Assembly: GCA_017622085.1 (NCBI GenBank)
Contig: JAGARU010000035.1
Location: 1 to 64,000 of the forward strand
Reading direction: 5' to 3'
Source: Clostridia bacterium
GTDB taxonomy: Bacteria; Bacillota; Clostridia; Oscillospirales; CAG-272
DNA length: 64,000 nucleotides
Part shown: positions 35,449-51,462 of the stretch, in pieces
Position numbering within the stretch: the first letter of the stretch is position 1
Layout: every line of letters starts with the position of its first letter
Program-made: the position numbers and the translations under genes
Notes under the pieces: generated by a model
What the model was told of the DNA's origin: nothing
Database searches by the model: none
Seen by the model: only the letters and a program-made list of their open reading frames with translations

Positions 35449-36669
35449 ATGAAACTCGGTAACGTTGATTTTGATACTTATTTTAATAATTTCCCGGATA
35501 AAGACGGCTACTTCGGCAAATACGGCGGCGTATACGTGGAGGAAAAGCTGAAAAACGCCATGGCAGAGATCACGGAGGCCTACTTCTCCATCTGCCAGTC
35601 CCGCAAATTCATTGCGGAGCTTCGCCGCATTCGCCGCGAGTTCCAGGGCCGCCCCACCCCCGTGTCTCACTTAGAGCGTCTGTCCGACGCCCTTGGCGGC
35701 AAGGTTCAGCTCTACGCCAAGCGCGAGGATTTGAACCACTCCGGTGCACATAAGCTGAACCACTGTATGGGTGAGGCGCTTCTTGCCAAGTACATGGGCA
35801 AAAAGAAGGTCATCGCCGAGACCGGTGCCGGCCAGCACGGCGTGGCACTTGCTACCGCCGCCGCTTACTTTGGCCTTGAGTGCGACATTTACATGGGATC
35901 GGTTGATATTAAGAAGCAGGCTCCCAACGTGGCCAGAATGAAGATTCTCGGCGCCAACGTCATTGAGGTTACCCACGGTCTGCAGACCTTGAAGGAGGCC
36001 GTAGACGCCGCCTTTGACGCCTACAGCAGAGAGTACAAGGACGCCATCTACTGCATCGGCTCCGTTCTTGGCCCCCACCCCTTCCCCATGATGGTACGTG
36101 ATTTCCAGAGCGTTGTGGGCATTGAGGCGAGAGAGCAGTTCATCGATATGACCGGCCACCTTCCCAACGCCATCGTTGCCTGCGTAGGCGGCGGTTCCAA
36201 CGCAGCCGGCCTCTTCGCCGGATTCTTAAACGATCCCGTGGATATCTACGGCATTGAGCCCCTTGGCCGCGGCGCCAAGCTGGGCGACCACGCCGCCAGC
36301 CTGAAGTACGGTACGGAGGGCATCATGCACGGCTTCAACAGCATTATGCTGAAGGATGAAAACGGCGACCCCGCTCCCGTTTATTCCGTAGCCTCCGGCC
36401 TTGACTATCCTTCCTCCGGCCCCGAGCACGCATTCCTGCAGGAGATCGGCCGCGTGAAGTATGACGTCATCGACGACGAGGAGACCATCGACGCCTTCTA
36501 TAAGCTGGCGCGCCTGGAGGGCATCATCCCCGCCATCGAAAGCTCCCATGCCGTTGCCTTCGGTATGAAGCTGGCCAAGACCATGGAGCACGGCTCCATC
36601 CTCATCAACCTGTCCGGCCGTGGCGACAAGGATATGGACTTCGTCATCGAAAAGTACGGCATTCGCTGA
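35449..36669 (+). CDS. trpB: Tryptophan synthase beta chain
   Basis: A 406-residue PLP enzyme that condenses indole with serine. HSGAHKLNH with Lys102 (Schiff base), AETGAGQHG (catalytic Glu in the next strand) and the phosphate-binding GGGSNA are all present, with the TrpB1 ending [31 protein letters not shown] precedes the ATG; an upstream in-frame TTG is inside that site. There is no trpA or other trp gene next to it: it is closed by a strong terminator. A stand-alone, T-box-controlled trpB fits indole salvage, or trpA lies elsewhere in the genome. Confidence 0.95.
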
Positions 36670-36690
36670 TTTCACCTCCTTAACTTATAT

Positions 36691-36727
36691 AAAACGCCCC
36701 CGGCGGTTTTACCGCCGGGGGCGTTTT
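36691..36727. terminator. Bidirectional terminator, trpB and the DUF1576-like gene
   Basis: A 17-bp perfect stem (AAAACGCCCCCGGCGGT / ACCGCCGGGGGCGTTTT) with a TTT loop serves both converging genes. Confidence 0.95.
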
Positions 36728-36729
36728 GT

Positions 36730-38172
36730 TCAACATTCGCGGGTGTCGTCGTCGAATTTGGGCTGGATCTTGTAAAAGTCCAGCACGGGCAGGAGCACCA
36801 GCGCCGTCAGTCCGGCGTTAAAGCCGCCGTTGTACAGCACCAATCCGCCGTGCATGGCGGCGGTGGAGGTACAGATCACCGCGCTGAGGAATCCGGCCAG
36901 AACGCCTATCTTAGCTCCATACTTTCCGCTGAAGGTACATAAGCCTGTGGCGAAGGCGAAGCCGTTGATGTAGCCCTGCGTGGACAGGGTGAAGGGAACC
37001 TCCCGTCCGCTGAGCAGGCAGATGGCCACCGTCACCGCCAGAAGAAGTACGTAGCCCAGGGCAATGGGCGCCACCGTTCGCGGCTGTTGACCGTCCGCCG
37101 CAAAGGTCAGGGCGGCAATCAGCACACCGGCCGTCGCCCCGGTAAAGCCGACGCCCTGAGGCAAGAAGGGGAACAGCTCCGGCAGAATAAAGATCAGGTT
37201 CAGATAGCCCAGCAGGCAAAGCCCGTAAACGCCAAAGTTGATCAGGCAAACCGGCGTGCCGAACTTGTCCAAAAAGTCCACACCGTAGCCCGTGCTACGG
37301 AGCAGATGGAGGTATCCGCGAAAGCTTCCTCGGTTAAAGAGATAGCCCATCAGCAGAGTGGACAAAAACAGGAGCAGGAAAAAGACGTTCATAAAGCCCC
37401 GGTATGCGTAGGGCAGGGCGTAGTAAGCCTCGTTTGTAATCTCCACCACCGTGGGCTCCTCCACACCCAAGGTGCGGTAAAGGAAGGCGTAGGCAAAAAT
37501 ACCCATAATGCCAATGGCAAGACCCGCCTTGTACATATTAAAGCCACGATGCATCGAGGTGGTTCCCGGCAAAAGGGCGGGCACCACAAATCCGGCGGCC
37601 AGACCGAATACAATGGCCAGAATCACGCCAAACACCGTGATCCGCGGCTCCCCGCCGGAGGCAATGCCCATGTAGCGGAACATCAGCTCACCGATAAAGG
37701 GGCCAAGGGCGGTCGAAAACATGGCCACGTGGACGTTATCCCGGAAGCGCCGCCGGGTCATGCGGCAAAAGAGCAGAACGCCGAGGAGCGGCGGCCACAT
37801 GGTAAGAAAATTCAAGCCGTAAAAGCCGTGTGCCACCACCAAAAGGTAGGCCGCAAGGGTGGTCGCGTTGGACTTGATCCGGCTAAGCCAAATGATCCAG
37901 TTGCAAAAGTAGCCGCAAACGGCGGTATTAAATAACGTGGCTGCCAGCCCACCCAAGGCAAAATAATCCGTCACCAGCTTGGAGGGCGTAGTCAGAATCC
38001 GAAGCACTCCTCCCCAAAAATCCGTCTCTCCCGTGACCCATACGGCCACCGGAACGGCGAGAAAAAAGAACAGAGACAGATAGGTTGTATAAAGCGCGAT
38101 AATGCGCGGCGCACTTTTTCCGTGATGCACCTCCGCATCGTAAGCGGAGATGTGCGTATGATTCGTCGACAT
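36730..38172 (-). CDS. DUF1576-like polytopic membrane protein
   Basis: A 480-residue integral membrane protein with about 12-13 hydrophobic segments. The blocks GGLAATLFNTAVCGYF, FLTMWPPLLGVLLF, STALGPFIGELMFRYM and MHRGFNMYKAGLAIG match my recollection of the DUF1576 family of Firmicutes, in which Gly-rich helices recur twice. No catalytic motif is known for the family, and transport is only a guess. A promoter lies 33 bases upstream, and it ends at the shared terminator with trpB. The ribosome-binding site is weak (GAGGA). Confidence 0.75.
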   Translation of the reverse strand: MSTNHTHISAYDAEVHHGKSAPRIIALYTTYLSLFFFLAVPVAVWVTGETDFWGGVLRILTTPSKLVTDYFALGGLAATLFNTAVCGYFCNWIIWLSRIKSNATTLAAYLLVVAHGFYGLNFLTMWPPLLGVLLFCRMTRRRFRDNVHVAMFSTALGPFIGELMFRYMGIASGGEPRITVFGVILAIVFGLAAGFVVPALLPGTTSMHRGFNMYKAGLAIGIMGIFAYAFLYRTLGVEEPTVVEITNEAYYALPYAYRGFMNVFFLLLFLSTLLMGYLFNRGSFRGYLHLLRSTGYGVDFLDKFGTPVCLINFGVYGLCLLGYLNLIFILPELFPFLPQGVGFTGATAGVLIAALTFAADGQQPRTVAPIALGYVLLLAVTVAICLLSGREVPFTLSTQGYINGFAFATGLCTFSGKYGAKIGVLAGFLSAVICTSTAAMHGGLVLYNGGFNAGLTALVLLPVLDFYKIQPKFDDDTREC

Positions 38173-38204
38173 GCAGGTATCCTCATAAAAAAGTCATTTC
38201 TTAT

Positions 38205-38233
38205 AGAATACCACATTTTTCGCCCCAAGGCAA
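38205..38233 (-). promoter_or_regulatory. Promoter for the DUF1576-like gene
   Basis: On the minus strand, -35 TTGCCT (38233-38228), 17-base spacer, -10 TATTCT (38210-38205). Confidence 0.6.
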
Positions 38234-38299
38234 CTACCCGACGCAAGGATTTTAGAATTTAATGCATCCTTTCTCCGCACCTCGGTCCAGCCCCATCCC

Positions 38300-38341
38300 C
38301 CAAAACAAAATCCCCACACCGGATAGGCCGGGGTGGGGAAT
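38300..38341 (-). terminator. Terminator of the DAP dehydrogenase gene
   Basis: On the minus strand, stem CCCCACCCCGG / CCGGTGTGGGG is followed by ATTTTGTTTT. Confidence 0.8.
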
Positions 38342-38344
38342 CAT

Positions 38345-39331
38345 TCAAAGCAAAGTAGCGCGGAGCTCCTCGGGGGATTTGGGGCTCAGGTAGGCGGGGG
38401 CGATGTCGAGGACGGTCTTGCAGCCGACCTGACCTTCGCACGCCAAGCGAGCGGCCGCACGGGCGTACGCTACGATTACGGAGGCGGTAAACTCCGGGTT
38501 GGAGTCAAGGGCAAGCTTGTACTCAATCAGATGGGTGTTCTCCCCGTTCCAGCCGGTCTTGCCGGAGCGAAGCACCACGCCGCCGTGGGGAATGCCGCTG
38601 TGGTCGCGCTTCAGCTCCTCCTCGGAGATAAAGTGCACCGTGGTATCGTAGTCGGCAAAGTAGTTGGGCATGGTCTTGATGGCCTCCTCAATGGCCACAA
38701 GATCCGCACCCTCCTCGGCCACCACGTAGCAGTCGCGGGTATGCTTTTCGCGGGTGGAGAGCTCGGGGCATTCACCGGCACGAACGGCGTTCAGCGCCGC
38801 CTCCACCGGCACGGTGTATTGCTTGGCGTTCTTAACCCCGGGCAAACGGCGGATGGCATCGGAATGACCCTGGCTGACGCCCTTACCCCAGAAGGTGTAA
38901 TCCTTGCCCTCGGGCAGGATCGCGCCGGCGTACATACGGTTCAGGGAGAACATACCGGGATCCCAGCCCACCGAAATAATTCCTACGTGTCCGCCGGCGC
39001 GGGCGGCCTCGTCCACGTTTGCAAAATGCTCGGGAATCCGCGCATGGGTGTCAAAGCTGTCCACCACGTTAAAATCGCGGGCAAGCGCCGGGGTCTGCAC
39101 GGGCAGGTCGGTGGCACTGCCGCCGCAAAGGATCATCACGTCGATCCGATCCTTCAGCTCGGCCGCTTTTTCCACGGGATATACGGGCACACCCTCCGTC
39201 AGGATGGTCACCGTTTCGGGCGGGCGGCGCGTAAATACTGCCACCAGCTCCATATCCGGGTTTTGACGGATGGCACACTCCACACCCCGTCCCAGATTGC
39301 CATATCCGTAGATACCAATTTGAATGCTCAT
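38345..39331 (-). CDS. ddh: meso-Diaminopimelate D-dehydrogenase
   Basis: A 328-residue NADPH enzyme that makes meso-diaminopimelate from tetrahydrodipicolinate in one step, supplying lysine and peptidoglycan. The Rossmann start IGIYGYGNLGRGVE is at 4-17, MILCGGSATDLP near 70, and VGWDPGMFSLNR and WGKGVSQGHSDAIRRLPGVK (about 120-170) are hallmarks of Ddh. The ATG at 39331 has GAAAGGATAAAACG before it; in-frame codons farther upstream lie in the promoter. It is a single gene with its own promoter and terminator. Confidence 0.94.
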   Translation of the reverse strand: MSIQIGIYGYGNLGRGVECAIRQNPDMELVAVFTRRPPETVTILTEGVPVYPVEKAAELKDRIDVMILCGGSATDLPVQTPALARDFNVVDSFDTHARIPEHFANVDEAARAGGHVGIISVGWDPGMFSLNRMYAGAILPEGKDYTFWGKGVSQGHSDAIRRLPGVKNAKQYTVPVEAALNAVRAGECPELSTREKHTRDCYVVAEEGADLVAIEEAIKTMPNYFADYDTTVHFISEEELKRDHSGIPHGGVVLRSGKTGWNGENTHLIEYKLALDSNPEFTASVIVAYARAAARLACEGQVGCKTVLDIAPAYLSPKSPEELRATLL

Positions 39332-39385
39332 CGTTTTATCCTTTCCGTGCCCCCAAGGGCCATGCAAATGCATTTTTACCTGCTC

Positions 39386-39414
39386 ATTATAGCACGCTCC
39401 CCTCCGTTTTTCAA
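39386..39414 (-). promoter_or_regulatory. Sigma-A promoter for ddh
   Basis: On the minus strand, -35 TTGAAA (39414-39409), 17-base spacer, -10 TATAAT (39391-39386). Confidence 0.8.
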
Positions 39415-39534
39415 TGGGACGCTTCAAAAAAATCGTGCTCTTGCCAAAGATTTATGGCGATTGTCATAGATTTGCGCGGTCTGTGTTATGCAATTATCCA
39501 AATCTTGAAGTTTTCTGAATTTTTTCTTGAAAAC

Positions 39535-39566
39535 CTGTCCGAAAATTGAAATTTTTACGTTTATAT
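39535..39566 (+). promoter_or_regulatory. Bipartite motif CTGTCCGAA-N14-CGTTTATAT, copy 1 (ECF-like promoter candidate)
   Basis: CTGTCCGAA (39535-39543) and CGTTTATAT (39558-39566) recur at 48438-48469 with the same 14-base gap, and both are followed by GAAGA. A partial third copy of the right half with downstream bases (TTATATAGGTGAAGGGGGAGG) lies at about 39651-39671. The arrangement resembles a promoter for an alternative sigma factor. It precedes the first lipoprotein gene by 300 bases; the rest of 39415-39865 holds no clear gene. Confidence 0.45.
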
Positions 39567-39672
39567 AAGACGAAGAGGAATGATTCCGGACATTTGTAAA
39601 TAAATTGTAAACACTTGAAAAAAGCAGAAATATTTGGCCGGTTTTTCTTCTTATATAGGTGAAGGGGGAGGT

Positions 39673-39738
39673 ATGGAATATGGGTGCTTGATCAAAGGAC
39701 GGAGGGATTCAGACAGAGTGCTCAAGAGAGCAATATGA
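39673..39738 (+). CDS. Possible 21-codon ORF or degraded gene start
   Basis: MEYGCLIKGRRDSDRVLKRAI begins one base after GGGGGAGG, too close for an efficient start, and stops at TGA. The charge pattern (xYxxLIxxxRxxDxxxLK) recalls the first residues of ECF sigma factors, so it could be a relic of one. It is too short to judge. Confidence 0.2.
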   Translation: MEYGCLIKGRRDSDRVLKRAI

Positions 39739-39807
39739 AATAAAAGAAGAGAACCCCTACCGTGGTACGGCCCATCGCTATGAAATGCAAGGTTGCGCCA
39801 GCCCCCG

Positions 39808-39836
39808 TTGACATAAAGGGCAAATAATGTTACAAT
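39808..39836 (+). promoter_or_regulatory. Sigma-A promoter of the first lipoprotein gene
   Basis: TTGACA (39808-39813), 17 bases, TACAAT (39831-39836), 30 bases before the start codon. Confidence 0.85.
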
Positions 39837-39865
39837 AAATAAAGGAAACAAAAGGAGATGGAATC

Positions 39866-40447
39866 ATGAAACTTATTACACGAATTTTATTATGCGCACT
39901 TCTGTTGACTTCTGTGTTGCTTTGCGCTTGTGGGGACGTTTCGGATGAATATACGTATGAGCTGATCTACAAAAACGATTCCCTTGTTTTGACCGAGGAT
40001 GGTACTGTGCTGGATACTTGGGCAGTGGAGGATATTTTTGCAATTTCCGGCTATTTCATGGAAGGCCTTGACTTTGCCACTGCACAGGGAGAAGAGGAAA
40101 TAAGAGCCGTTCTCAAAACGCTGTTTAAAGACGGCGTAGGGCTTTCTTTGACGACGGAAGCAGCCATAAGCTATAACGAAAGCGATCCTTTTGTGACAAG
40201 CATGTTTGGCATGGCCTGTGAGGATATTCCCACCTCGGCAATGGGATACTATCGAGCCACAGACGGCTTGGCGGCAAGATTTTATGTGATCCATACCCCT
40301 TCCGAGGAAGATGAACGAAACGGCACCTTCGTTTTTGTCGACCGTCACGGAAATTATTATAGCGCCCAAACGAACGTAACAACCGGTGACCGATTGACCG
40401 AGCATATGATATCCAATCATCGGCAAAAAGCGGTCCGGCATGACTAA
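39866..40447 (+). CDS. Lipoprotein, member 1 of a three-paralog family
   Basis: A 193-residue exported lipoprotein. Signal peptide with lipobox LCAC, so the mature protein starts at Cys22. The mature part (YELIYKNDSLVLTEDGTVLDTW, DIFAISGYFMEG, FVFVDRHGNYY) aligns along its length with the products at 41950 and 49713. This copy is the most divergent: CGDVSDEYT replaces the CSTxxYxPTExAEYE start, and the middle is less conserved. I recognise no family. AAAAGGAGAT precedes the ATG. Anchored on the outer face of the membrane, its role is unknown. Confidence 0.85.
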   Translation: MKLITRILLCALLLTSVLLCACGDVSDEYTYELIYKNDSLVLTEDGTVLDTWAVEDIFAISGYFMEGLDFATAQGEEEIRAVLKTLFKDGVGLSLTTEAAISYNESDPFVTSMFGMACEDIPTSAMGYYRATDGLAARFYVIHTPSEEDERNGTFVFVDRHGNYYSAQTNVTTGDRLTEHMISNHRQKAVRHD

Positions 40448-40469
40448 ATGACGGAGAAAAATGCCCCCG

Positions 40470-40497
40470 TGAGGATTTTTGCTCTGTTATTCGACCA
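40470..40497 (+). promoter_or_regulatory. ECF-type promoter candidate TGAGGA-N16-CGACCA
   Basis: -35-like TGAGGATTTTT (470-480 side) and -10-like CGACCA (40492-40497) are 16 bases apart and end 30 bases before the ATG at 40528. A near-identical site (TGAGGT-N16-CGACTA) stands 31 bases before another lipoprotein at 52592. The shape is that of ECF sigma promoters (TGAAAC-N16/17-CGTC type). Confidence 0.5.
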
Positions 40498-40527
40498 ATT
40501 GATACACCCGTAAGAAAGGAGAACCGT

Positions 40528-41919
40528 ATGAAACGATTGTTCGCTGCTATATTAGCCCTGTGCCTCTTGGCTCTCCCAGCGTGCGGCGATGCTCCTGTGG
40601 AAACGACCCCGGTGGTTACCACACCGACACCAACGACACCCGCACCCACAACTCCCGCACCGACTACCCCGGCGGCAACAACTCCTGCCTGCACCACGCC
40701 GGTACCTACAACTCCCGCGCCGACGACACCCGCGCCCACTACGCCGGTTGCTTCTGGGGATGAAAAGGTCTATTCCAATGCGACGATCGAGGATGATTTT
40801 GCGGAGGATGAGGTTCTCGTCGTTTTGACCCATACGGCCAGCTTGGCGAAGTTTGATTATACCGTTGAGGATTTTGCTGACGTGGGTTGTGTTGAGGTTA
40901 AGAATCTTACTTCTTATACTACGGAGCGCGTAAGAAACGCTGTGGGTAAAATGGCCTCTTTGGATAGTGAAACTCGCCGGCTTGTACAGAACTACAACGC
41001 GATATGGAGCATTAAGCTGGCTGATCCCGGCAAGCAGAACGTGTTAGATGCCATCGCCATTCTGATGGAGCGCGACGATGTGAAATCGGCAACTCCCAAT
41101 ATGCGCATTTCATTAGAGCCCGTTAAGCCGGAGATCACGCCCTTGACCGATGCGCAGATGGCGGAGATCAATGCTGCATGGCTTGAGGAAAAGGGTTACC
41201 CCGCCAAATGGTTCGACGAAAACGAAATTATCACCCGCCACTTCGGCTTGCGTTACTACGGTACTTATGGTGGGTATCAAATTTTGTTTGCTCCGGGAAC
41301 AAAAGCCTCCGGGCATGAAATTTATTTTGATAATATACTTCTTAATTATGAAACAGAATTTGCGCTTTACGCCTACCATTCCGGCGAGCTTTTCAGCGCG
41401 CAGGCACTCTACGAGAGCGGTGCGTTGAATTCAGAGGATATTACCGCTATTGCCCGGTATCATGCAGCAACAGAGCTTGCCATTGCAAACCGTCCCGATT
41501 TAGACAATCCCTATGACTGTATTAGCCCGGATTTCCCGGCGCTCGAACTCCTGCCGCAAGAAATGCGCGACCAAATTGAGGCAGACTATCGCGCCATTCA
41601 CGAATACGACCTTAGCGGTGTTATATACTGCGGAACTTACAACGGTTGTGTTGTTTTTGTTTTTGACGTAGCCACGGATGCGTGGAATCCACATAATATT
41701 GGCGGACAGTATTTTGAGCTTGGCTCCTGTATGGACTTTATTATATACAAGGACGGAGAATTTTTGCCCTCAAGAATGGAATGCTCCGCCTTGCTATACG
41801 CTTTCAACCATAATTATTTGACCGCATCGGATATCGAAAAAATCGAGCACTATGCCCGCACCCAAATGGAAGCATTGGGTCTGGACGCCCCCTTTGCATC
41901 CCCGGACTTGCCACAATAA
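40528..41919 (+). CDS. Lipoprotein with Thr-Pro pentapeptide linker and S8-propeptide-like domain
   Basis: A 463-residue exported lipoprotein; lipobox LPAC, Cys19. Ten TTPxx units form a stiff linker (residues 26-75). Next, about 85-195, is a segment reminiscent of subtilisin propeptides/inhibitor I9 (DEVLVVLTHTA, YNAIWSIKLADPGKQNVLDA, DDVKSATPNMR), but no subtilase domain follows. The rest (about 210-463) is unfamiliar, with a YYGTYGGYQILFAPG / YCGTYNGCVVFVFDV internal repeat that suggests two copies of one fold. GAAAGGAG precedes the ATG. It is followed by the second paralog lipoprotein, 30 bases downstream, and probably co-transcribed with it. Confidence 0.8.
   Translation: MKRLFAAILALCLLALPACGDAPVETTPVVTTPTPTTPAPTTPAPTTPAATTPACTTPVPTTPAPTTPAPTTPVASGDEKVYSNATIEDDFAEDEVLVVLTHTASLAKFDYTVEDFADVGCVEVKNLTSYTTERVRNAVGKMASLDSETRRLVQNYNAIWSIKLADPGKQNVLDAIAILMERDDVKSATPNMRISLEPVKPEITPLTDAQMAEINAAWLEEKGYPAKWFDENEIITRHFGLRYYGTYGGYQILFAPGTKASGHEIYFDNILLNYETEFALYAYHSGELFSAQALYESGALNSEDITAIARYHAATELAIANRPDLDNPYDCISPDFPALELLPQEMRDQIEADYRAIHEYDLSGVIYCGTYNGCVVFVFDVATDAWNPHNIGGQYFELGSCMDFIIYKDGEFLPSRMECSALLYAFNHNYLTASDIEKIEHYARTQMEALGLDAPFASPDLPQ
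40603..40752 (+). repeat. 15-bp tandem repeat encoding TTPxx units
   Basis: Ten degenerate 15-base units encode TTPVV, TTPTP, TTPAP, TTPAP, TTPAA, TTPAC, TTPVP, TTPAP, TTPAP and TTPVA. In-frame slippage could change linker length without breaking the gene. Confidence 0.9.
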
Positions 41920-41949
41920 CAGATCGTGGCATCAGAAAGGAGACCCCCA

Positions 41950-42522
41950 ATGAAAAAACTACTATCCTTTGTTCTCGCCCTGTGCCTCTTGGCTCTCCCG
42001 GCCTGTAGCACGGGTGAGTACGTGCCCACGGAAGATGCAGAATACGAGCTGGTTTACGAGTGGGGCGCGCTTGTTTTGAAGGAAAACGGTAAAACAATCG
42101 ATTCATGGAAGGCGCGGGATATATTTGCGATTTCCGGCGGATCGATGTTAGACTCTGCTACGGTTCAAGGAAAAAAGCCGGTGCGCGCCTTTTTCAAGGA
42201 GATGTTTGGTGTCGGTGTCCCCTTGTCTTTGGTGGCACAGGAGGATATGCCGAAGTATGATGCCGTTACGATGGAGGCTTACGGCTTATCCTATGAGGAT
42301 ATCGATCCCGACGGATTTGTATATTCCATGGATACAACAGGGCTTCGAGCAATTTTTGTTGTGCCGATTGAGCTATTGTCAGAGGAAACCAATTCTTTCT
42401 TTTTCGTGGATCGCTACGGTAATTATTACGAGGCGGATCCTTCCGTTCTCTCCAGTGGGGAGCTTCGGTTTTATATGATCAATAATCACTCCGGCGCTCT
42501 TATTGAGCATGAGGGTGAATAA
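41950..42522 (+). CDS. Lipoprotein, member 2 of the three-paralog family
   Basis: A 190-residue lipoprotein; lipobox LPAC, Cys19. The mature part starts STGEYVPTEDAEYELVYEW and continues GALVLKENGK, DIFAISGGSMLDSATVQGKK, AFFKEMFGVGVPLSL, FFFVDRYGNYYEAD; it is very close to the product at 49713 and clearly related to the one at 39866. ATG 41950 has AAAGGAGA 8 bases upstream. Its signal peptide (LALCLLALPAC) resembles that of the gene before it (identical LALCLLALPAC), suggesting local recombination of 5' ends. The function is unknown. Confidence 0.85.
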   Translation: MKKLLSFVLALCLLALPACSTGEYVPTEDAEYELVYEWGALVLKENGKTIDSWKARDIFAISGGSMLDSATVQGKKPVRAFFKEMFGVGVPLSLVAQEDMPKYDAVTMEAYGLSYEDIDPDGFVYSMDTTGLRAIFVVPIELLSEETNSFFFVDRYGNYYEADPSVLSSGELRFYMINNHSGALIEHEGE

Positions 42523-42554
42523 AGAGGCTACAAGAAGCTAAACGATTGAAAAAC

Positions 42555-42605
42555 AAAAAAAGTCATCCCAACGCCGCAAATTCCGGTATTGGGATGACTT
42601 TTTGT
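42555..42605. terminator. Bidirectional terminator, lipoprotein and MFS genes
   Basis: Stem AAAAAAAGTCATCCCAA / TTGGGATGACTTTTT (42555-42571 with 42589-42603) with a 17-base loop and T-runs on both strands. Confidence 0.92.
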
Positions 42606-42627
42606 TCTGGCCTTTCCTTCGTCTTTT

Positions 42628-43836
42628 TTATTCCTTTTCCGTAAATCTCTGCCATGGCTTGGCGGCAAGGAGACAGATGGCGGTGCCAACAACGGCAATG
42701 AGGCCCCAGACGAGGACGGTGGCGTGCCAGCCGATCTCTTGGGACAGGCGGGCAATTCCGTAGGAGGAAGCGGCGCTTCCTACGTAGGTGCAGGCGTTGA
42801 TCACGCCGGAGGCGGTGGACACCATGCCCTGCCGCTTAAAGAAGGCGGGCACCATGCATACCAGCATCAGATTCACACCGTGCATACATCCGGTCAAAAG
42901 GGCGGACAGCACCACGGATGCGGCCGCGCTGGCGCCGGTCACGCCGTAAAGGCCAAAGGCGGCCAAGGCGCCTACCCCAAAGATCACACCGGCGCACAAC
43001 ACGGCGTTGGTTATGGTCTTGCGGTACAGGCGGGAGGACACCTCAAAGCAGATCATGCTGAAAATGGGCAGGATCACGCCGGTCAGAATGGCAATAATGT
43101 TGCTCAGATTGTAGGTTTCGGAGATATAGGTGGGCATCCAGGTGGTAACGCCATCCTTCAGCATGCCCTGCATTACGATGGCCACCATAAGGGCCAGCAT
43201 CAAAGGAGAGAACAGACCGCTGTGCCCACCCTGCGCCTTGGGGGTGCGGGTACGGGGCTGGAGGTCGATCTCGTAGGAATATTTGTGCCAGAAGAACAGC
43301 ATCACGGCACCGCACAGAGCAGAGAATATGAATACCGCCCGCCAGCCGGACAGAGAAATAATCAGCGGCGAGATCAGATAGATCAGCATCGTACCGAGGG
43401 ATGAGCCAAAGGACACCTTAACGGTGACCCGCTTGTAGTCCTCCTCCGAGAGGAGCGCGGTCATCAGCCGCACAAGGGGCGGCCACATAAAGCTCTGGGC
43501 AAAGCCGTTTACGCACCAGATGCCCAGCATCAGATAGGGGTTTCCGCACAGAGGAATCAGCAGATTCATGCAGACGGTCAGAACAAATCCGTAGGACATC
43601 AGACGCTTGGGGGACACCCGGTCGCCAAGGATGCCGCTGACGATCTGGCCGACGCCGTAGGTTACAAAGCTTCCCGTCAGCGCAAGGGACAACAGATCCC
43701 GCGCAATGCCGGTCTCCCGTTCCATTTCCGAGATGACCGCGCCGTAGTTGATGCGCGTAATATAGCTGACCATGTAGGTCAGGGTAAAGAGCAACGCCAA
43801 ATGGTTGATCTCCCGTTTCGTTTGGGGCAAATGCAT
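42628..43836 (-). CDS. MFS transporter
   Basis: A 402-residue inner-membrane protein with about 12 transmembrane helices. Helix 1 is followed by RINYGAVISEMERETG and the loop 2-3 motif GILGDRVSPKRLM corresponds to the MFS signature GxxxDRxxRR. The N-terminal sequence YITRINYGAV is like the organophosphate:phosphate/anion symporter branch (GlpT-like), but the substrate cannot be assigned. It is a single gene with its own promoter and convergent to the lipoprotein gene. GGAGGTACGGCC precedes the ATG. Confidence 0.9.
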   Translation of the reverse strand: MHLPQTKREINHLALLFTLTYMVSYITRINYGAVISEMERETGIARDLLSLALTGSFVTYGVGQIVSGILGDRVSPKRLMSYGFVLTVCMNLLIPLCGNPYLMLGIWCVNGFAQSFMWPPLVRLMTALLSEEDYKRVTVKVSFGSSLGTMLIYLISPLIISLSGWRAVFIFSALCGAVMLFFWHKYSYEIDLQPRTRTPKAQGGHSGLFSPLMLALMVAIVMQGMLKDGVTTWMPTYISETYNLSNIIAILTGVILPIFSMICFEVSSRLYRKTITNAVLCAGVIFGVGALAAFGLYGVTGASAAASVVLSALLTGCMHGVNLMLVCMVPAFFKRQGMVSTASGVINACTYVGSAASSYGIARLSQEIGWHATVLVWGLIAVVGTAICLLAAKPWQRFTEKE

Positions 43837-43868
43837 GGCCGTACCTCCGTTTTTTGAAAATCCGCATC

Positions 43869-43897
43869 ATTATAGCACAGGCCGCCCGATTTTGCAA
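43869..43897 (-). promoter_or_regulatory. Sigma-A promoter for the MFS gene
   Basis: On the minus strand, -35 TTGCAA (43897-43892), 17-base spacer, -10 TATAAT (43874-43869). Confidence 0.75.
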
Positions 43898-43955
43898 GAG
43901 AAAAGATATTTTTTACCGAAGACCGCCGAATTTTTCGCCGCTTGCGGCGCGGCAC

Positions 43956-43984
43956 TTGAAAAAACGGCGGAATTCAGGTACAAT
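43956..43984 (+). promoter_or_regulatory. Sigma-A promoter for the ABC-2 exporter operon
   Basis: -35 TTGAAA (43956-43961), 17-base spacer, -10 TACAAT (43979-43984). Confidence 0.75.
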
Positions 43985-44014
43985 AAGCATAGAAATCAAG
44001 TTCAGGAGGTCCGT

Positions 44015-44926
44015 ATGAACAGCATTGTAATTGAAGGACTGTGTAAAAGCTTTGGGGAGATTCAGGCCGTCCGCGACCTGAGCTTCCGCGTGCAGGAGGG
44101 AGAGCTGTTTGCGTTTCTCGGCGTAAACGGTGCGGGAAAGTCCACCACCATCAACATCCTGTGCGGACAGCTGGAAAAAGACAAGGGCACCGTTACCATA
44201 AACGGTATGGATCTGGATCAGGACGTAAACCGCATCAAGGGCGAGCTGGGCGTCGTGTTCCAAAGCTCCGTTTTGGACGGTCCCCTTACCGTGCGGGAGA
44301 ATTTGGAGAGCCGTGCGGCTCTGTACGGAATCACGGGCGCGGCCTTCCGTCAGAGGTTGGAGGAGCTGTCCGAGCTTTTGGCCTTTGGGGAGCTTTTGAA
44401 CCGACCGGTGGGTAAGCTTTCCGGCGGTCAGCGGCGTCGGATTGATATTGCCCGTGCTCTGCTCCATCGCCCTCGCATTTTGATTTTGGATGAGCCCACC
44501 ACGGGCTTGGATCCGCAGACGCGCCAGATCCTCTGGCAGGTGATTGGCACCCTGCGCCGGCAGGAAAACATGACGGTGTTTCTTACCACCCACTACATGG
44601 AGGAGGCCGCCGACGCCGACTACGTGGTGATCTTGGATAGCGGCAAAATCGCCGCCGAGGGCACGCCTCTTACACTGAAAAACACCTACACCGGCGACTT
44701 TATTACGGTCTACGGACTGACGGAGGCAGAGGTCACCGCTCTCGGCGTGCCCTACGAGCCCTTGCGGGACGCGCACCGCCTTTCCGTGCCCGATACTGCC
44801 GCCGCCACCCGGCTGATCGTCAGCCACCCGGAGCTGTTCCGGGATTACGAGGTAACAAAGGGAAAAATGGACGACGTTTTTCTTGCCGTTACCGGCAAAA
44901 CCTTAACGGGAGGTGAAGAGAAATGA
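44015..44926 (+). CDS. ABC-2 type exporter, ATP-binding protein
   Basis: A 303-residue ATPase of the drug/antibiotic and Nod-factor exporter type. Walker A GVNGAGKST (about 36-44), signature LSGGQRRR (about 137-144), Walker B LILDEPTTGLD, H-loop His in TTHYMEE. The C-terminal ~80 residues match the DrrA/NodI-like extension. ATG 44015 is chosen for the CAGGAGGTCCGT site; an in-frame frame farther upstream overlaps the promoter. The stop overlaps the next start (ATGA), so it is translationally coupled to the permease. Confidence 0.93.
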   Translation: MNSIVIEGLCKSFGEIQAVRDLSFRVQEGELFAFLGVNGAGKSTTINILCGQLEKDKGTVTINGMDLDQDVNRIKGELGVVFQSSVLDGPLTVRENLESRAALYGITGAAFRQRLEELSELLAFGELLNRPVGKLSGGQRRRIDIARALLHRPRILILDEPTTGLDPQTRQILWQVIGTLRRQENMTVFLTTHYMEEAADADYVVILDSGKIAAEGTPLTLKNTYTGDFITVYGLTEAEVTALGVPYEPLRDAHRLSVPDTAAATRLIVSHPELFRDYEVTKGKMDDVFLAVTGKTLTGGEEK

Positions 44927-45810
44927 AGCCTGCTACCGTGCTGATCAAACGAAACGTAAAGCTGTTTTTCAAGGACAAGGGTATGTTCTTTACGTCTCTC
45001 ATTACCCCCATGATCCTGCTGGTTTTGTACGCAACCTTCTTAGCCTCCGTGTATCGGGATAGCTTTACCGCCAATTTGCCGGCGGGACTTCCCTTGGAGG
45101 AGGCGCTGATCGACGGACTTGTTGGCGGCCAGCTGATCTCCTCGCTTTTAGCGGTCTCTTGCGTCACCGTGTCCTTCTGTGCCAACTTCCTTATGGTGCA
45201 GGATCGGGCAAACGGCACCGTAAAGGATCTGACCATCTCACCCATGCGCCCCGCCACTCTGTCGCTGAGCTACTACGTGGCCACCCTCTTGTCCTCCCTT
45301 CTGATCTGCTTCGCGGCTGCGGGCATCTGCCTCGGCTACGTGGCCGCCGTGGGCTGGTATCTGTCGGCCTCCGATGTGGTGTGCCTGTTCCTTGACGTGC
45401 TGCTGCTCACTCTGTTTGGCACCGCACTGTCCTCGGTCATCAATTATTTCCTCACCACCCAAGGTCAGATCTCGGCGGTGGGAACGGTGGTCAGCTCCGG
45501 ATACGGCTTTATCTGCGGCGCCTATATGCCCATCTCCTCCTTCAGCCCGGCCTTGCAGAAGGTCATCTCCTTCCTGCCCGGCACCTACGGCACGGCGCTG
45601 GTCCGCAACCACGCCATGGGCGGTGCCATCAGGGAAATGCAGGCGCAGGGCGTGCCCGCTGAGGTAGTAGAATCCCTCCGCGACGCTCTGGATTGCAATC
45701 TGTACTTCTTCGGTCACGGGGTATCACAGCCCGCCATGTACGGAATTCTCGGCGGATCCATTCTTTTGCTTCTGGCCGTGTACGTGGGACTGAACGCCCG
45801 CAAGCGGTAA
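44923..45810 (+). CDS. ABC-2 type exporter, permease
   Basis: A 295-residue integral membrane protein with six predicted helices and the ABC-2 signature region near CGAYMPISSFSPALQKVISFLPGTYG (seen in parts: GAYMPISSF and ISFLPGTYG). The first extracellular loop (about 45-75) is large. It starts inside the stop of the ATPase gene (ATGA), so subunits are made together. No maturation or immunity gene follows; the left inverted repeat of a mobile element begins about 10 bases after the stop. The exported substrate is unknown. Confidence 0.9.
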   Translation: MKPATVLIKRNVKLFFKDKGMFFTSLITPMILLVLYATFLASVYRDSFTANLPAGLPLEEALIDGLVGGQLISSLLAVSCVTVSFCANFLMVQDRANGTVKDLTISPMRPATLSLSYYVATLLSSLLICFAAAGICLGYVAAVGWYLSASDVVCLFLDVLLLTLFGTALSSVINYFLTTQGQISAVGTVVSSGYGFICGAYMPISSFSPALQKVISFLPGTYGTALVRNHAMGGAIREMQAQGVPAEVVESLRDALDCNLYFFGHGVSQPAMYGILGGSILLLLAVYVGLNARKR

Positions 45811-45819
45811 ACGCAAATA

Positions 45820-45896
45820 AAAAAACGTCCACCGGTTTAGGCTGGTTCTCATAAGGATGTTTACAAAATTGTAGGGACCGGCGTCCTCGACGGTCC
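45820..45896 (+). repeat. Left terminal inverted repeat
   Basis: Blocks AAAAAACGTCCACC, GGTTCTCATAAGGATGTT and TTGTAGGGACCGGCGTCCTC-GACGGTCC. Confidence 0.8.
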
Positions 45897-45910
45897 GCGA
45901 CACATAATTT

Positions 45911-45938
45911 TCGGCAGAGAACTTATTTTCTCTGCCGA
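45911..45938 (+). repeat. Perfect 11-bp inverted repeat
   Basis: TCGGCAGAGAA / TTCTCTGCCGA with a 6-base spacer, followed by TTTGTGTTATAATG. It may act as terminator for the ABC operon or promoter-proximal hairpin of the orphan gene. Confidence 0.55.
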
Positions 45939-45960
45939 TTTGTGTTATAATGAGGCTAAC

Positions 45961-46066
45961 AGAAAGCCTCTCCCTTTGGGAGAGGTGGCGGCGTAGCCGA
46001 CGGAGAGGGCGAACAATTCCCCTCTCACCCGCTATCGCGGGAGCTCTCCCAAAGGGAGAGCCTTGG
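45961..46066. repeat. Dispersed palindromic repeat (CTCTCCCTTTGGGAGAG type)
   Basis: Arms AAAGCCTCTCCCTTTGGGAG and CTCTCCCAAAGGGAGAGCC face each other across ~60 bases that include GCGGCGTAGCCGACGGAGAG and CCCGCTATCGCGGGAG. Repeats of this kind are common, many-copy intergenic elements in gut Clostridia genomes. Confidence 0.65.
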
Positions 46067-50439: not shown

Positions 50440-51462
50440 TCAGTTGGGGCGACGGAGGGTGCGGTAGACGGTCCAACCGGAGGTCTCGATTCCGGCGGCC
50501 GTTTGAGTATAGAGGGCGTCGGAGCCCAGCAAGCACAGCACCAGATCGCCCTTCACGGCGATCATCGCGTTTGAGGGAAGCACGCACACCCATTTGGTCC
50601 AATCAATGTGCTCCTCAAAGTCCTTGCACACGTCCCGGGCATCGACGCCCTCCTTGACGGTAACAAGGGTCAGAGAGTAGGGGGTGGTCATCATCATGGC
50701 CGCACAATAGGCCGAGGAGCGGATCGAATCGCCGCTGCTGAGCCCAAGGGTGTGGTGGGAAAGGGAAGAATCCACCGTAAACGCATCCAGATCCTGCACC
50801 TTGCCTGCCCGGAAAATGGCCATAAGCTCCTCTATATACTTGTCCTCCACGGGGCTGAGCAGCAGGGGCTGGGGCACGTAGACAGGCAAGGGAGCGGTCA
50901 GCTCAGCCATGTAGGCGTCAAGAACGGCATAGGCTTGACGGAAGGCGGCCGGCACGGAGCCGCCGTAGCTGGCGCCCCAATAGGTTCCGTCGGCAAAGGA
51001 AACGTACAGGGAGCCGTTGGCATCGCCGCTGACCCATACCTCCTGCCCGTTGCAGGCCTTAAGGCCCGTGGCCATGAGGGCAAGGGTTACGCTGTGGAGC
51101 ACCCATCCGTCCAGATCTGCCACCTTTTTTACCTCGCCCACGTATTCCACGTGGGTGCTTCCGTCGTCATTTAAGTAAACGGTAATGGAACGGATGTGGC
51201 TGTAGTCCTCCCCAAGGGATACGGTCAGATAGGAAATGGGGTTTTCCGCCTCCTCGGTGGAGGGCGGCAGGGCGGGCGGTGTTTGCGCCGGTGTGGATTG
51301 TACCGGCGTGGACTGCACCGGGGTGGATTGGGTGGGCGTGGTCTGCGTCGGTGTGGTGACGTCAGGGGTCGCAGTGGGGGTCGTGTCCGCCGGGGTCTGC
51401 CCACACCCCATCAAGGCTGTCAGCAGAGCGAGGGCAAGCACCAGAGAAAGCAGTCGTTTCAT
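50440..51462 (-). CDS. Lipoprotein with Ser/Thr-Pro-Gln repeat linker
   Basis: A 340-residue lipoprotein; lipobox LMGC, Cys20. Residues 23-70 are a Thr/Pro/Gln-rich linker with five (S/T)TPxQ units; the mature domain (about 75-340) has sheet-like sequence (ITVYLNDDGSTHVEYVGEV, YVSFADGTYWGASYGG) and a second half that looks like a DUF4358-type region (DLDAFTVDS, YCAAMMMTTPYSLTLVTVKE, VLCLLGSDAL), by recollection only. It follows the lipoprotein gene at 52592 by 17 bases and is co-transcribed. The linker resembles that of the 40528 product. Confidence 0.8.
   Translation of the reverse strand: MKRLLSLVLALALLTALMGCGQTPADTTPTATPDVTTPTQTTPTQSTPVQSTPVQSTPAQTPPALPPSTEEAENPISYLTVSLGEDYSHIRSITVYLNDDGSTHVEYVGEVKKVADLDGWVLHSVTLALMATGLKACNGQEVWVSGDANGSLYVSFADGTYWGASYGGSVPAAFRQAYAVLDAYMAELTAPLPVYVPQPLLLSPVEDKYIEELMAIFRAGKVQDLDAFTVDSSLSHHTLGLSSGDSIRSSAYCAAMMMTTPYSLTLVTVKEGVDARDVCKDFEEHIDWTKWVCVLPSNAMIAVKGDLVLCLLGSDALYTQTAAGIETSGWTVYRTLRRPN
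51283..51357 (-). repeat. 15-bp tandem repeat encoding (S/T)TPxQ units
   Basis: Five degenerate 15-base units encode TTPTQ, TTPTQ, STPVQ, STPVQ, STPAQ. The unit length matches that of the repeat at 40603. Confidence 0.85.

Follow-up and report, generated by a model that had tools for sequence, protein, structure and literature searches.

The gene examined here lies in a 64,000-nucleotide stretch of DNA from a Clostridia bacterium (the window) and encodes a predicted lipoprotein in which one domain is, by sequence comparison, a homologue by descent of the propeptides of clostridial S8 subtilases, although it is followed by no catalytic domain. On balance we lean towards the reading that this protein would be displayed on the cell surface and bind subtilases in trans, either as an inhibitor or as bait. 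In the following, the propeptide-like domain is called the N domain, a unit of ~72 residues that follows it twice is called the C repeat, and G000 denotes the genome that holds the window.

The window gene and its surroundings

The features of the gene and of its two neighbors are listed in Table 1. A ten-unit TTPxx linker had been reported in an initial annotation of this DNA, and the count gave exactly that number. The GC content reaches 67% across the linker region (40591-40760).

Table 1. Features of the window gene and its flanking genes (positions in the window).
Feature	Position	Strand	Details and basis
5' small lipoprotein-like gene	39866..40447	+	193 aa, no named family; ORF list, Pfam/NCBIfam
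Shine-Dalgarno-like AAAGGAG	40515..40521	+	six bases 5' of ATG; read in sequence
Window gene ORF	40528-41919	+	ATG start, 463 aa
Predicted signal peptide	40528..40584	+	lipobox-like LPAC at end, putative lipidated Cys19; translation by eye
TTPxx linker	40603..40752	+	10 units; TTP units counted
N domain	40765..41127	+	residues ~80-200; pairwise hhalign, BLAST, AF2 model
A-T-P-N motif	41089..41100	+	last strand of propeptide fold; alignments A1, A3, A6
C repeat 1	41254..41466	+	YYGTYGGY... unit, ~72 aa; A4 profile E 1.6e-24 (A4 includes the unit itself)
C repeat 2	41626..41859	+	YCGTYNGC... unit; A4 profile E 1.6e-25 (A4 includes the unit itself)
3' small lipoprotein-like gene	41950..42522	+	190 aa, no named family; ORF list, Pfam/NCBIfam

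The front part of the protein, consisting of signal peptide and TTP linker (40528-40760), resembles the fronts of many otherwise different G000 proteins. About 42 of 49 matches fall in or near this part alone, and at G000:C76:6048-6236 (L005) the first 64 residues are 87% identical to the window protein before an unrelated-looking protein follows. Judged by these sequences, signal peptide and linker look as if they formed a swappable cassette. A second lipoprotein-like gene in the window (51178-51462, minus strand, open frame of 362 codons) also has a TTP/STP-rich linker and differs in its body. The two genes flanking the window gene are paralogues, with 41% identity across 164 aa.

Pfam and NCBIfam searches with the window protein and its two neighbors gave no match with E < 0.01 outside the low-complexity linker; an NCBIfam match of the window protein to BimA (E 9e-4) spans this linker only and was discounted. 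The best values in a sequence search of solved structures were E 0.13 for the window protein and 0.11 and 1 for the profiles of the N and C domains.

Descent and predicted fold of the N domain

The domain had initially been likened to an S8 propeptide, and the comparison with propeptides of real subtilases bears this out as homology. Seven C-repeat-fused orphans were compared with ten S8-linked propeptides by pairwise hhalign, which gave an E-value of 8.8e-32 over 105 columns, with no rows shared between the alignments and the window left out of the enzyme side. The window N domain is 41-46% identical to the propeptide of G303 (L082/L111/L167), the value varying with the alignment. In a BLAST comparison among 57 domains, which is a small database, the nearest relative of the window was the S8-linked L110 (E 8e-25), and the S8-linked L167 matched with 41% identity over 123 aa (E 6e-24), while a whole-genome search with the single window sequence gave L032 as best S8-linked match (E 3e-8). 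The E-value of ~1e-33 for the window against profile A1 is inflated since A1 includes the window sequence, and the values against A1, A3 and A6 are non-independent because all three alignments include it. Among ten scanned family proteins all six apparent subtilases matched Peptidase_S8 (Pfam, E 2e-39 to 6e-51), with the N domain directly preceding the enzyme, and in most S8-linked relatives the motif A-x-P-[ND] sits between the last strand and the protease (alignments A1, A3, A6).

The AlphaFold2 model of the N domain, calculated from 19 rows, has a pLDDT of 94.2 and a pTM of 0.84 and shows the order beta-alpha-beta-(helical insert)-beta-alpha-beta. It is thus ferredoxin-like, the fold whose absence had been named beforehand as a refutation, and its core strands at residues 91-192 fit the domain limits of 85-195 given in the initial annotation. 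A fold search of the PDB returned mostly generic ferredoxin-like folds (FtsX outer domain, RRMs, NikR, ribosomal S6) along with a proprotein-convertase prodomain (Z 5.8, rmsd 2.6 over 72 residues); no Foldseek match reached E <= 0.001 and every VIA Z was below 8. The predicted fold therefore agrees with a propeptide and does not single one out, and as many unrelated ferredoxin-like folds are returned, the fold alone proves nothing.

An HMM comparison with Fervidolysin-type propeptides and Inhibitor_I9 had also been proposed. The former hint was apt, as the nearest Pfam model is PF22148 (Fervidolysin_NPro-like), matched by 8 of 19 family members at E <= 1 (best 8.7e-7) and exceeded at its cut-off by the orphan relative L092 (26.1 vs 21 bits). 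The window N domain itself stays below this curated cut-off of 21 bits (15.5 bits, E 0.024). The I9 part did not hold for the window protein, which has no match to PF05922 (Inhibitor_I9); one of the 19 family members matches this model (E 0.046).

The missing enzyme in G000

That the protein carries no protease, as initially stated, was confirmed: none follows in the ORF and PF00082 (Peptidase_S8) has no match in the window protein. The same model has no match in the whole of G000, which is 97.8% complete and 7.8% contaminated (E <= 0.01, second scan E <= 0.001). In the sample analyzed, G000 is the sole representative of its genus. In 20 of 24 genomes chosen for holding an N domain S8 is present; those with no S8 match are G000, G005 (91% complete), G499 (83%) and G521 (68%). 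G000 possesses two intact N domains, the window copy and a paralogue on contig C76, which are 33-36% identical and both keep the hallmark residues despite this deep divergence. Two intact though diverged copies in a genome with no S8 match speak against a dying remnant. Judged by eye, the C76 paralogue lies ~1.5 kb 3' of two genes, one sigma-like and one anti-sigma-like, from which a further lipoprotein-like gene separates it.

Spread of the N domain and its separation from the enzyme

A single-sequence search with the N domain gave matches in 20 of 295 family genomes (E <= 0.01), or 14 after dropping six loci judged to be chance matches: L041 and L049, which we take to be RNase R-like, L046 and L047, presumably SpoIIAB-like, as well as L044 and L048, the latter with three stops within the frame. 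N-domain profiles (E <= 1e-4) found the domain in 19 of the 394 order-level genomes and in 18 of the 391 class-level ones, with G000 counted in both. Three scans of viral contigs yielded no N-domain relative. The surroundings were examined for 45 N loci, five of which are duplicates between two sources; the ORF table, to which the window and L021 were added and in which duplicates were left out, comprises 58 ORFs with an N domain, of which 26 have S8 and 32 lack it. The class-level sample gave 21 matches, of which 16 loci were examined; G000 (two), G316 and G381 had been covered before, and G897:C81 was left out.

In a tree of 57 rows, whose bootstrap has not settled and in which the window row has no well-supported neighbor set, the label 'enzyme-less' is clustered, needing 13 changes compared with a mean of 19.1 after shuffling. 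At least seven of these changes, which may run either way, are forced by well-supported branches. Six well-supported pairs of S8-linked and enzyme-less domains were found (L166/L170, L167/L168, L178/L183 and one each within L115, L157 and L171); L166 and L157 are broken genes and the other four are intact.

Several apparent orphans are more plausibly fragments of subtilase genes, namely the truncated copy at L157, the two half-domains at L160, L173:6086, and L165:2130 and L166, in which one in-frame stop separates the propeptide from the enzyme. These pieces stay among the 32 enzyme-less ORFs, and those with at least 80 residues also in the tree, which makes the number of independent releases softer than the count. 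The stops in L165:2130-4826 and L166:4371-6692 (-), a single TAA and TAG before the subtilase domain, may reflect nonsense mutations, errors of assembly or a genuine split of the gene. Compared with the adjacent subtilase's own propeptide, the enzyme-less copy is 83% identical at L171/L119, 67% at L157 and 59% at L115. Most likely, as far as sequences tell, the N domain was freed more than once, partly through local duplication.

Architectures, neighborhoods and free tails

Seven of the 32 enzyme-less ORFs, spread over six genomes, combine the N domain with C repeats. At L043 and L092 it occurs together with a Pfam-supported dockerin, L092 additionally carrying a C repeat, and at L101/L118 with a putative wall anchor (by eye). 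A C repeat initially suspected between the N domains of L114/L116 was not found by the A4 profile at the cut-offs and is not counted. L174 in G521 (68% complete, no S8 match) consists of four tandem lipoprotein-like genes (by eye), each with at least one divergent N domain.

Once in G005 and twice in G011 a Sigma70 gene directly precedes the gene of a membrane protein (TM by eye) whose outer part contains the N domain, and these membrane proteins are putative anti-sigma factors. At L115 three consecutive genes encode a Penicillinase_R repressor, an M56 BlaR1-like protein with the N domain at its C-terminus, and a subtilase whose propeptide resembles this domain. Subtilases adjoin enzyme-less copies in further relatives (e.g. 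L171, L155, L182), in contrast to G000. Six of the nine subtilases with such a neighbor keep a recognizable propeptide of their own (L115, L121, L157, L160, L171, L173); of the other three, L155 is a partial frame, the L165 gene is broken before the enzyme, and L182 has no propeptide by profile. The stretch L160:4733-9815 (G285), directly 5' of a subtilase, shows short, partly overlapping frames in which C-repeat proteins alternate with half propeptide domains.

In ten of the 32 enzyme-less ORFs the stop comes 6-10 residues past the AxP[N/D/S/G] motif. This pattern was noticed post hoc, and since L114 and L116 are nearly identical copies it amounts to nine independent ORFs. The 16 class-level loci examined contain two enzyme-less ORFs (L199, L202), both of which stop six residues past the motif and have no S8 match within the surrounding 12-kb stretches. 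A processed subtilisin propeptide ends with such a free tail. The window protein differs from these short-tail ORFs, with 272 residues after the motif.

The C repeat

The unfamiliar two-repeat domain that had been noticed behind the propeptide-like domain is indeed made up of two C repeats, and among 16 repeat rows none of the Pfam families has more than a single match. The IseA endopeptidase inhibitor model matches one of these 16 sequences (E 0.0035), which we take as a lead only. The AF2 model of C repeat 1 from six rows is of moderate quality (pLDDT 70.8), and a fold search gave no convincing likeness to a solved structure (best VIA Z 4.5, no Foldseek E <= 0.001). The A4 profile detects C repeats in 26 of the 394 order-level genomes. 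A 1119-aa G000 protein (L022:3014-6373, G000:C92) has at least three C repeats in its C-terminal part, its N-terminal part reading like leucine-rich repeats (by eye). Another gene, L057:829-2940 (-), encodes a BlaR1-like M56 protein (Pfam E 3e-53) with two C repeats and parallels the M56 protein with N domain at L115.

C-repeat genes adjoin N-type subtilases at 6 of 30 S8-type loci, which include L172, where the S8 profile finds no enzyme and Pfam only a short match. The six are G227, G181 (with a C-N fusion as neighbor and a partial S8 frame), G004 (whose neighbor gene is one of the 16 rows of the A4 profile), G285 (with half-domain ORFs), G513 and L110; counting a weak match at L169 makes seven. 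About 0.012 of the 30 loci would be expected from the density of C repeats in the order sample outside G000, assuming a mean genome of 2.1 Mb and with a stricter cut-off than in the locus scan, and 0.24 with this density raised twentyfold. Of 14 N+S8 ORFs with 1.5-kb flanks in the class sample, one (G959) is preceded by two C-repeat genes. N domain and C repeat co-occur in 6 of 394 genomes vs 1.25 expected (hypergeometric p 0.0007; p 0.003 with G000 excluded), a test which ignores kinship and includes some genomes that had gone into the profiles. Fusion in some species and adjacency in others is a usual sign of a shared task, and because C repeats are also encoded by separate genes beside N-type subtilases, they would serve the same subtilase system as an accessory module.

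Possible functions of the window protein

In the reading that we favor, the predicted lipoprotein would be anchored at the surface and display its subtilase-derived propeptide domain on a TTP-rich stalk, where the N domain might dock in trans on the catalytic domain of a subtilase reaching the cell and inhibit or capture it. Because no subtilase was found in G000 the target should be foreign, possibly a subtilase secreted by another cell, e.g. by related bacteria with a matching propeptide. The attacking protease may first clip the junction between propeptide and C repeats and remain attached to the anchored domain afterwards; since the propeptide runs on into the C repeats and has no free tail, binding may need this cut, or it may be a non-inhibitory capture. 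Lipidation, binding, inhibition, clipping, the identity of the target and the role of the repeats are steps that we infer for the window protein. A surface-anchored protease inhibitor, the function suggested in the initial annotation, is a possible reading and the one that we favor.

Arguments for a trans-acting binder are the homology to S8 propeptides, the high-confidence ferredoxin-like model, the intact though diverged G000 copies, the short-tail ORFs, the enzyme-less copies and the C repeats beside subtilases, and the stand-alone inhibitors named in the excerpted text of PMC6993865. Against it we count the ~270 residues that follow the window N domain, where those relatives that most resemble inhibitors have a free C-terminal tail, the contamination of G000 and the lack of a cognate subtilase in this genome, taken together with the one propeptide described in the excerpts of PMC10580911, which was very selective and was degraded by other subtilases.

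The main rival is protease sensing, with the free propeptide as bait whose binding or cleavage signals that a subtilase is present. The window protein would then be a lipoprotein that feeds such a pathway as bait or decoy. This rival draws on the N domains of membrane proteins encoded after ECF sigma genes in G005 and G011, the gene trio at L115, the sigma-like and anti-sigma-like genes near the C76 paralogue and the precedent of RsiV, an anti-sigma factor of Bacillus with lysozyme as ligand according to the excerpts of PMC4183432. The window protein, however, has no recognized transducer domain (Pfam, NCBIfam), and no sigma factor or receptor was seen by eye beside its gene among the ORFs at 36000-46000, so that we regard sensing as unlikely for this protein. 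Less likely again, and in our view quite improbable, is an evolutionary leftover, i.e. an enzyme-stripped piece of a subtilase kept as spacer or passenger of a repeat protein and binding no protease. The broken or truncated subtilase genes at L157, L165 and L166 show that free propeptides can arise by decay, but both G000 copies are intact and keep their hallmark residues, and the N domain recurs both in combination with C repeats and in receptor-like proteins. An orphan propeptide could also serve as an intermolecular chaperone, as propeptides aid the folding of catalytic domains (excerpts of PMC6993865), enzyme-less copies adjoin subtilases in several relatives and the L182 enzyme has no propeptide by profile. 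With most of the subtilases next to an enzyme-less copy keeping their own propeptide and with no S8 match in G000, a folding helper is the least likely role for the window protein and hardly to be expected.

Extending the trans-binder reading, we tentatively propose, though with considerable doubt, a modular control of subtilases in the class Clostridia, in which freed propeptides would act as surface inhibitors in trans and as ectodomains of ECF anti-sigma and BlaR1-type receptors, with the YGTYNGC-repeat partner fused to them or encoded beside the subtilase, and to which the window protein would belong as an outpost that lacks a subtilase and defends against the proteases of neighbors. A bacterial family in which this domain was repeatedly freed and placed on lipoproteins, dockerin proteins and receptor-like proteins, together with an unnamed repeat module, would amount to ready-made protease inhibitors and sensors. 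It raises the testable question whether the secreted subtilases of one such bacterium are detected and blocked by another, and offers a possible role for the C-repeat family.

Comparison with known systems

Within the open-access matches listed, no title or abstract start named a bacterial stand-alone or receptor-borne subtilase propeptide, which is weak evidence of novelty. With the clostridial S8 propeptides the window protein shares the homologous domain and the terminal AxP[ND] motif, whereas no catalytic domain follows its copy, which also lies below the PF22148 cut-off.

Stand-alone propeptide-like inhibitors of subtilases named in the excerpts of PMC6993865 are the P. ostreatus peptidase A inhibitor 1, the yeast peptidase B inhibitor, Arabidopsis SPI-1, T. 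gondii MIC5 and P. falciparum SUB1-ProM. Like these the window protein has the propeptide fold without its enzyme; unlike them, as all those named there are eukaryotic, it comes from a bacterium, is a predicted lipoprotein, carries additional repeats and has a putative activity. The SUB1-ProM gene adjoins subtilase genes (same excerpts) and the window gene does not, although adjacency is not general among stand-alone inhibitors. RsiV, as far as the excerpts of PMC4183432 describe it, is paralleled by the N-domain relatives that are membrane proteins encoded after ECF sigma genes. The window protein itself differs in not being a transducer.

Serpins are another family of inhibitors. While the window protein has no dockerin match (Pfam), its relatives L043 and L092 pair the N domain with a dockerin and in this respect resemble the dockerin-bearing serpins of Ruminococcus flavefaciens in the excerpts of PMC2721979, which likewise join an inhibitor module to a dockerin.
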